From: Candidatus Doudnabacteria bacterium
GTDB taxonomy: Bacteria > Patescibacteriota > Doudnabacteria > UBA920
Assembly: GCA_031291995.1 (NCBI GenBank)
Contig: JARLHZ010000025.1
Location: 220,266-266,756, forward strand
Direction of reading: 5' to 3'
DNA length: 46,491 nucleotides
In this document: piece after piece, positions 40,971 to 41,429 of the stretch
How the letters are laid out: each line of letters opens with the position of its first letter
How positions within the stretch are numbered: position 1 is the stretch's first letter
Made by a program: the position numbers and the translations under genes
Notes under the pieces: generated by a model
What the model saw: only the letters and a program-made list of their open reading frames with translations
The model's database searches: none
What the model was told of the DNA's origin: nothing

Positions 40971-41429
40971 TTATTTGCCGTGACAATCAAGAAACTTTTT
41001 TCCGCTGCGGCAAAGGCATTTGGGGTTATTGTTGAAAAAATTCTGCGGCGCGCGAAGCAAGGGCTCAAGTAAAGAATTTAAATTAAACCAGTCGATTTTT
41101 TTGCATTTTTTGGGTCCCATGATTTTTGGCGACCCTTCAAAACTGTTAACAAGAAAGTCGAGGTTGACGTAATGACTAAAACGGTCGTTTGGCACGCTAA
41201 TATTGTTATTTATCGCCCAAAGTTCGGCATCATGAACCTCAAGATCGGTTTCTTCCCTCGTCTCCCTTTTTACACAATCAAGGAATTGTTCGTCAAACGC
41301 CAAGTGCCCGCCGGGAGGCGCCCAGGTGTCCCCGCTGTCAGGACGGTGTTCCAGCAACATCAATACCTGGTTATGACCGTTTAAAATATAAACTCCAACA
41401 CCAACTTTTGGACGAGATTTTTCAGCCAT
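40971..41429 (-). CDS. NUDIX hydrolase fused to a SEC-C zinc motif
   Basis: 152 residues. The NUDIX box runs from G41 through E47 to R55-ETREETDL63, MutT/ADPRase type, with PPGGHLAFDEQ. After a short linker the C-terminus is a SEC-C motif, CLCRSGKKFLDCHGK (138-152), with Cys138, Cys140, Cys149 and His150. This is the zinc-binding tail found at the end of SecA, and SecA encoded upstream in this window ends [15 protein letters not shown]. The fusion is unusual, and the substrate is unknown. Confidence 0.87.
   Translation of the reverse strand: MAEKSRPKVGVGVYILNGHNQVLMLLEHRPDSGDTWAPPGGHLAFDEQFLDCVKRETREETDLEVHDAELWAINNNISVPNDRFSHYVNLDFLVNSFEGSPKIMGPKKCKKIDWFNLNSLLEPLLRAPQNFFNNNPKCLCRSGKKFLDCHGK

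Follow-up and report, generated by a model that had tools for sequence, protein, structure and literature searches.

The window, that is, the whole stretch of 46,491 nucleotides that was analysed, belongs to the genome of a Candidatus Doudnabacteria bacterium (G000), which comprises 1.49 Mb on 39 contigs. The following genes and features were found at the locus:

40365..40916, minus strand, Ham1-family gene, downstream of the NUDIX gene (Pfam Ham1p_like, 3.4e-30)
40971..41429, minus strand, NUDIX hydrolase with SEC-C tail, 152 aa (ORF list, Pfam, homologues)
40974..41021, minus strand, SEC-C tail of the NUDIX protein, residues 137-152 (KCLCRSGKKFLDCHGK), with putative CxCx8CH metal ligands (Pfam, homologues, model)
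41247..41315, minus strand, NUDIX box, residues 39-61 (PGGHLAFDEQFLDCVKRETREET), with E47, R55, E56, E59 and E60 intact
41678..41965, minus strand, small conserved ORF (KEPTKTEKFMYEL) between secA and the NUDIX gene (weak match to Pfam Mlp, 5.4e-05)
42357..45134, minus strand, secA, with its own SEC-C motif at the 3' end (42366-42422) (ORF list, Pfam)

As the sequence-only reading had proposed, positions 40971-41429 encode a NUDIX enzyme with a SecA-type SEC-C tail. The ORF of 152 residues is intact, with an ATG start and no stops, it matches the NUDIX family of Pfam, its C-terminus reads CLCRSGKKFLDCHGK / NNNPKCLCRSGKKFLDCHGK, and the same architecture was present at ten loci in all. The same reading placed secA about 1 kb upstream on the same strand with the same motif, and this was confirmed, as 927 bases lie between the two genes and secA carries the SEC-C end.

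Pfam NUDIX (PF00293) matched residues 7-124 with an E-value of 3.2e-15 and 56.7 bits, above the cut-off of 21.1. The window protein contains the catalytic box Gx5Ex7REUxEE, and the G that follows EE in the longer box consensus is replaced by D. E47, R55, E56, E59 and E60 were invariant in a six-row alignment of six carriers, and in a 12-row alignment E47, E56, E59 and E60 were invariant and R55 was nearly so. Twelve models were listed as matching the protein, the best being the MutT 8-oxo-dGTP diphosphatase equivalog (TIGR00586) with 32.1 bits, below its cut-off of 97.9, so the protein is not claimed as MutT; none of the models listed reached its equivalog cut-off. The AlphaFold model, made from a 12-sequence input, had a mean pLDDT of 91.2. 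In the structural search (Foldseek was also run), NUDT15 (Z 20.3, rmsd 2.5, 141 residues aligned) and AtNUDX1 (Z 19.9, rmsd 1.7, 135 residues aligned) were tied as best matches, and further fold matches were MutT-type proteins. Arabidopsis Nudix hydrolase 1 was also matched among PDB sequences with an E-value of 1.7e-20. The gene product is best read as a house-cleaning hydrolase similar to MutT and NUDT15, whose SecA-type tail would serve for docking; its substrate and dock we infer.

Pfam SEC-C (PF02810) matched the window tail with an E-value of 0.014 and 15.7 bits, and the genome profile search gave 18.0 bits, both below the curated cut-off of 20.4. Among the other carriers of the same family, the tail of G014 scored over the cut-off (22.4 bits), those of G001 (19.3 bits) and G008 (16.9 bits) scored under it, and those of G018 and G007 were missing from the profile matches at an E-value of 0.1. 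Outside the family, the Liptonbacteria tail reached 30.4 bits and the two Moranbacteria tails 26.9 and 22.5 bits, so that at least four relatives have a tail that scores above the cut-off. The ligand pattern CxCx8C(H/C) was kept in nine of the ten carriers, the window among them; the last ligand is Pro in G008 (CP, not CH) and Cys in Moranbacteria L089 (CC). The window tail has the GKK core and a C-terminal position. The GRND lead of SecA was absent from all ten NUDIX tails, and the residue before the third ligand was D, E or T in seven of them, compared with K or R in the SecA ends examined. The net charge was between +2 and +4 in every tail. In the AlphaFold model the tail region (residues 131-150) had pLDDT block means of 95 and is modelled as an ordered knuckle, which may bind zinc or iron.

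SEC-C tails are best known from SecA, the export motor, and the Patescibacteria-type carriers found here are tiny, mostly uncultured bacteria. The tail was found at ten distinct loci among 179 NUDIX-box ORFs scanned (duplicates included), in samples that were selected by carrier profiles and do not amount to a census. Nine of these loci lie beyond the window: five in its own, Doudnabacteria-like family, two in Moranbacteria, one in Liptonbacteria and one in another class. The sequence-only reading would have been undone if no relative at all had the tail or if sister strains had it out of frame. Neither was observed, since the nine other loci bear the tail, and it is in frame in both same-genus relatives that carry it (G014 and G018) and at seven more distant loci; the tail is thus neither a sequencing artefact nor a product of chance.

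NUDIX matches with an E-value of 0.001 or better were found in 19 of 22 genomes of the family. Six of the 22 (30 loci examined) carried the tail, namely G000, G014, G018, G001, G007 and G008, and within the genus it was present in three of eight genomes (G000, G014 and G018); G015, of the same genus, has a close NUDIX relative without it. The order-level and class-level searches covered the same 49 genomes. In the phylum sample of 379 genomes, 51 gave matches at an E-value of 1e-30 or better, and six were carriers: G000, G014, G018, G001, G007 and, newly, G073. In the class of G073 (55 genomes), G073 stood alone among the matches that extend to the tail of the model. In the named genome collection, the closest relatives of the NUDIX protein among the best 80 of 299 were Candidatus Doudnabacteria MAGs; these 80 included seven carriers, of which four were G014, G018, G001 and G008, and Moranbacteria L087 and L089 and Liptonbacteria L088 were new. 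G208, G133, G036 and G043 had been suspected as carriers because of long profile matches, and no SEC-C tail was found at the locus in any of them. On viral contigs, NUDIX-box ORFs were present at 28 of the 29 loci examined and none had the tail. There were 33 matching plasmid records and 27 matching phage records; the match stopped by residue 140 of 153 among the 15 plasmid matches listed, and by residue 135 among the 10 phage matches listed.

For the tree of the NUDIX domain, 123 of 155 distinct ORFs passed score and coverage, and one truncated duplicate was removed, leaving 122 domains, from which the tail columns were taken out. All ten carriers fell together in a single 11-row branch with support 97/87, within which the branching order is unsure because the bootstrap was unsettled and the columns were few (126). 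The eleventh row was the tail-less relative from G015. The tail label required 2 changes on the tree, compared with a mean of 9.8 when it was shuffled, and none of 500 shuffles was as low. The neighbouring branch comprised 36 tail-less rows, mostly from Pseudomonadota, and its link to the carriers was weakly supported (84/46). On this tree, one old gain and one loss would be the simplest history of the tail, and the distribution would be explained best if an ancestor shared by several groups of Patescibacteria had gained the tail once and it had been lost at least once since. In six pairs, pN/pS was 0.12-0.25 for the tail and 0.16-0.42 for the body, ratios that are rough because synonymous differences were high (0.55-0.91 per site). 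Judged by these ratios, purifying selection was shown to act on the tail. The tail is not essential everywhere, as it is missing in the G015 relative, has lost a ligand in G008 and has an altered one in L089.

We tentatively prefer, with somewhat less than even confidence, the reading that the protein is a house-cleaning NUDIX diphosphatase that gained its tail once and uses the metal knuckle as a dock, most likely on the ribosome. The enzyme would be a diphosphatase like MutT, NUDT15 and AtNUDX1, and the SecA-type knuckle at its C-terminus would serve as a docking module that takes no part in catalysis. The surface of the ribosome would be the likeliest dock and would keep the enzyme close to ongoing translation, where it would clear nucleotides that are damaged or serve as signals (8-oxo-GTP-like or (p)ppGpp-like). 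SecB is the classical partner of the SEC-C tail of SecA and is bound by it in E. coli. No SecB was found in the 22 genomes of the family, and a control search detected it in four genomes of 14, E. coli among them. SecB binding is therefore not expected for the NUDIX tail, and recruitment of the enzyme to a SecA partner, one of the suggestions of the sequence-only reading, fails as far as SecB is concerned.

Sections of one study (PMC6620043) report that a SUMO fusion of the C-terminal tail of SecA co-sediments with ribosomes and that this metal-binding domain (MBD) is retained in many species without SecB. SecB binding is thus no general property of MBDs. The published ribosome partner of the SecA tail also exists in cells without SecB, which makes the ribosome the likeliest dock. 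By analogy, tail-mediated recruitment to the ribosome would be plausible, and the basic charge of the tails would suit a surface that binds ribosomes. According to a passage of PMC7593582, E. coli MutT and NudG degrade (p)ppGpp, which may be a reason for a location at the ribosome. Other data point the other way. The isolated SecA MBD has a relatively low affinity for ribosomes, and SecA without the MBD binds them more tightly than full-length SecA (both in sections of PMC6620043); by analogy, both would count against a dock on the ribosome. The missing GRND lead, the residue that precedes the third ligand (D, E or T in seven tails), the lost or altered ligands and the absence of the tail from the G015 relative would likewise speak against the preferred reading.

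The main rival reading, which we regard as unlikely yet as a serious candidate, is that the tail is a structural metal cap that stabilises the C-terminus or a dimer of the NUDIX enzyme and has no partner. Only about 12 residues separate the NUDIX match (to residue 124) from the SEC-C match (from residue 137), the knuckle is modelled with the high pLDDT given above, and the structural alignments with NUDT15 extend to residue 148 of the model. However, close homologues in the neighbouring branch and in G015 do without the tail, G008 retains the region though one ligand is gone, and the tails remain basic.

The gene neighbourhood bears on a second rival, in which the enzyme is a Sec accessory, connected through its tail to SecA or more generally to the Sec pathway in the way proposed for YecA. 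For eight of the ten carriers, secA was located upstream, in the same orientation and at a distance of up to about 6 kb (G000, G014, G018, G007, G008, G073, the Liptonbacteria carrier and G001, the last at about 6 kb). A passage of a review also suggests that more proteins with SecA-like MBDs may be Sec accessories (PMC8076867). On the other side, no secA was seen within about 10 kb around the NUDIX gene in either Moranbacteria carrier (L087 and L089). Tail-less NUDIX genes share the proximity to secA, as in G006, G011 and G015, so that NUDIX genes are a frequent feature of the region behind secA in this family. Among 30 secA loci of the phylum, a NUDIX-like ORF was nearby in three, one of them with masked bases, which is too weak for a claim. 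The family also lacks SecB in the genomes searched, and several other neighbours are nucleotide-sanitation genes. The Ham1-family neighbour, which we take to be an ITPase-type nucleotide pyrophosphatase, was found in G000, G014, G018 and G007, a uracil-DNA glycosylase (UDG) in G001 and a MazG-like gene in L087. A guanylate-kinase-like neighbour in G014 scored 25.1 bits, just below the cut-off of 25.2, and one behind the tail-less NUDIX gene of G015 scored 33.1 bits. These neighbours point to nucleotide sanitation rather than secretion, and we consider a role as a Sec accessory improbable.

Several further observations were made around these genes. In G014 (L198, L275), a frameshifted tail-less NUDIX gene lies between secA and the tailed gene and resembles the one behind secA in G011. 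In Liptonbacteria L088 (855-5963), four NUDIX-box ORFs follow secA, one of them tailed. Small ORFs similar to KEPTKTEKFMYEL, with a motif like KEPTKTEKxxYEL, were seen near secA and NUDIX genes in G001, G007, G011, G014 and G015; coordinates of the small ORF elsewhere are L193:5492-5770, L195:8057-8383, L194:5277-5576 and L196:3477-3806. Moranbacteria L089 has a second SEC-C match, in a 902-residue frame on a separate contig, and the genome of L087 had no further SEC-C match at an E-value of 0.1. G016 (L179, around 1501) encodes another SEC-C protein in an open frame of 273 residues, QGCPCGSNREFRDCH, with no apparent resemblance to SecA.

It is most improbable that the motif is a recent copy made locally from the adjoining secA: the two genes are close in the window and 36 of 57 bases are identical in the compared stretch of their tails, but 8 of 12 codons at shared residues are identical compared with 5.9 expected from usage (P 0.18), the Ser codons differ in class (AGC and TCC), the carriers form a single branch, and in G001, G007 and G018 SecA tails of other types stand beside canonical NUDIX tails. 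Codon sharing, the single carrier branch and the differing SecA tail types thus speak against a recent form of the copying that the sequence-only reading had considered, whereas the kinship with SecA stands and an ancient descent of the tail from a SecA-like end is likely. Four of the six carriers in the family (G018, G001, G008 and G007) have a resident SecA of another tail type, CGMLNTPEH, CGLLNTPEH, CGMLNTAEH or AINPETGK...YHKK, and in G018, G001 and G007 the NUDIX tail nevertheless ends in the canonical CH. In the window and in G014 both ends are canonical, so these two alone are indecisive.

A frameshift had been suspected in the SEC-C region of SecA in G007, G015 and G019, and was rejected in favour of another tail type (CPCGAINPETGK...YHKK). 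SecA ends of this type were seen in L180 (G015, about 1361-1550), L182 (G019) and L193 (G007). G015 retains, directly downstream and in a different frame, a remnant of what was once a canonical SecA end, as though the 3' end of secA had been exchanged, and a decayed form of such a remnant seems to be present in G019.

A bolder form of the docking reading is that Patescibacteria recast the SecA tail as a general docking tag that posts a nucleotide hydrolase on the ribosome, and that oxidised or alarmone nucleotides are thereby removed where translation occurs. We hold this joint proposal to be doubtful. If true, it would amount to a localised system of nucleotide sanitation or alarmone clearing. 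SEC-C tails occur on several proteins without a known role, which may be parts of the Sec system or general ribosome adaptors. With a recognisable enzyme domain, no SecB in the family genomes, and natural relatives that are tailed, have lost a ligand or lack the tail, the adaptor idea can be tested directly here.

In the literature searched, there was no report of a NUDIX domain paired with SEC-C, and papers that named both did so in separate contexts. Both modules are known, and so is SEC-C on other proteins (a passage of PMC8076867); it is the pairing with NUDIX that was not found in print. The window protein resembles NUDT15, AtNUDX1 and MutT-type proteins in its fold and NUDIX box, but the 21 PDB sequence matches stop at residue 134 or earlier, before the tail. 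The neighbourhood resembles that of E. coli, in which mutT lies next to secA, so that there too a MutT-type NUDIX gene adjoins secA. To our knowledge, E. coli MutT has no SEC-C tail. A mutT-secA' fragment is named for E. coli in a passage of PMC7593582. With the MBD of SecA (PF02810), the NUDIX tails share the CxCx8CH ligands, the C-terminal position and, in the window, the GKK core; unlike it, they sit on a small hydrolase, lack the GRND lead and, in seven of ten cases, place D, E or T directly ahead of the third ligand. E. coli YecA and YchJ likewise carry a SecA-like MBD on a protein other than SecA; PMC8076867 describes both as of unknown function and YecA as potentially a SecB-interacting chaperone. 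In contrast to YecA, the NUDIX carriers belong to a family in which that partner was found in none of 22 genomes.
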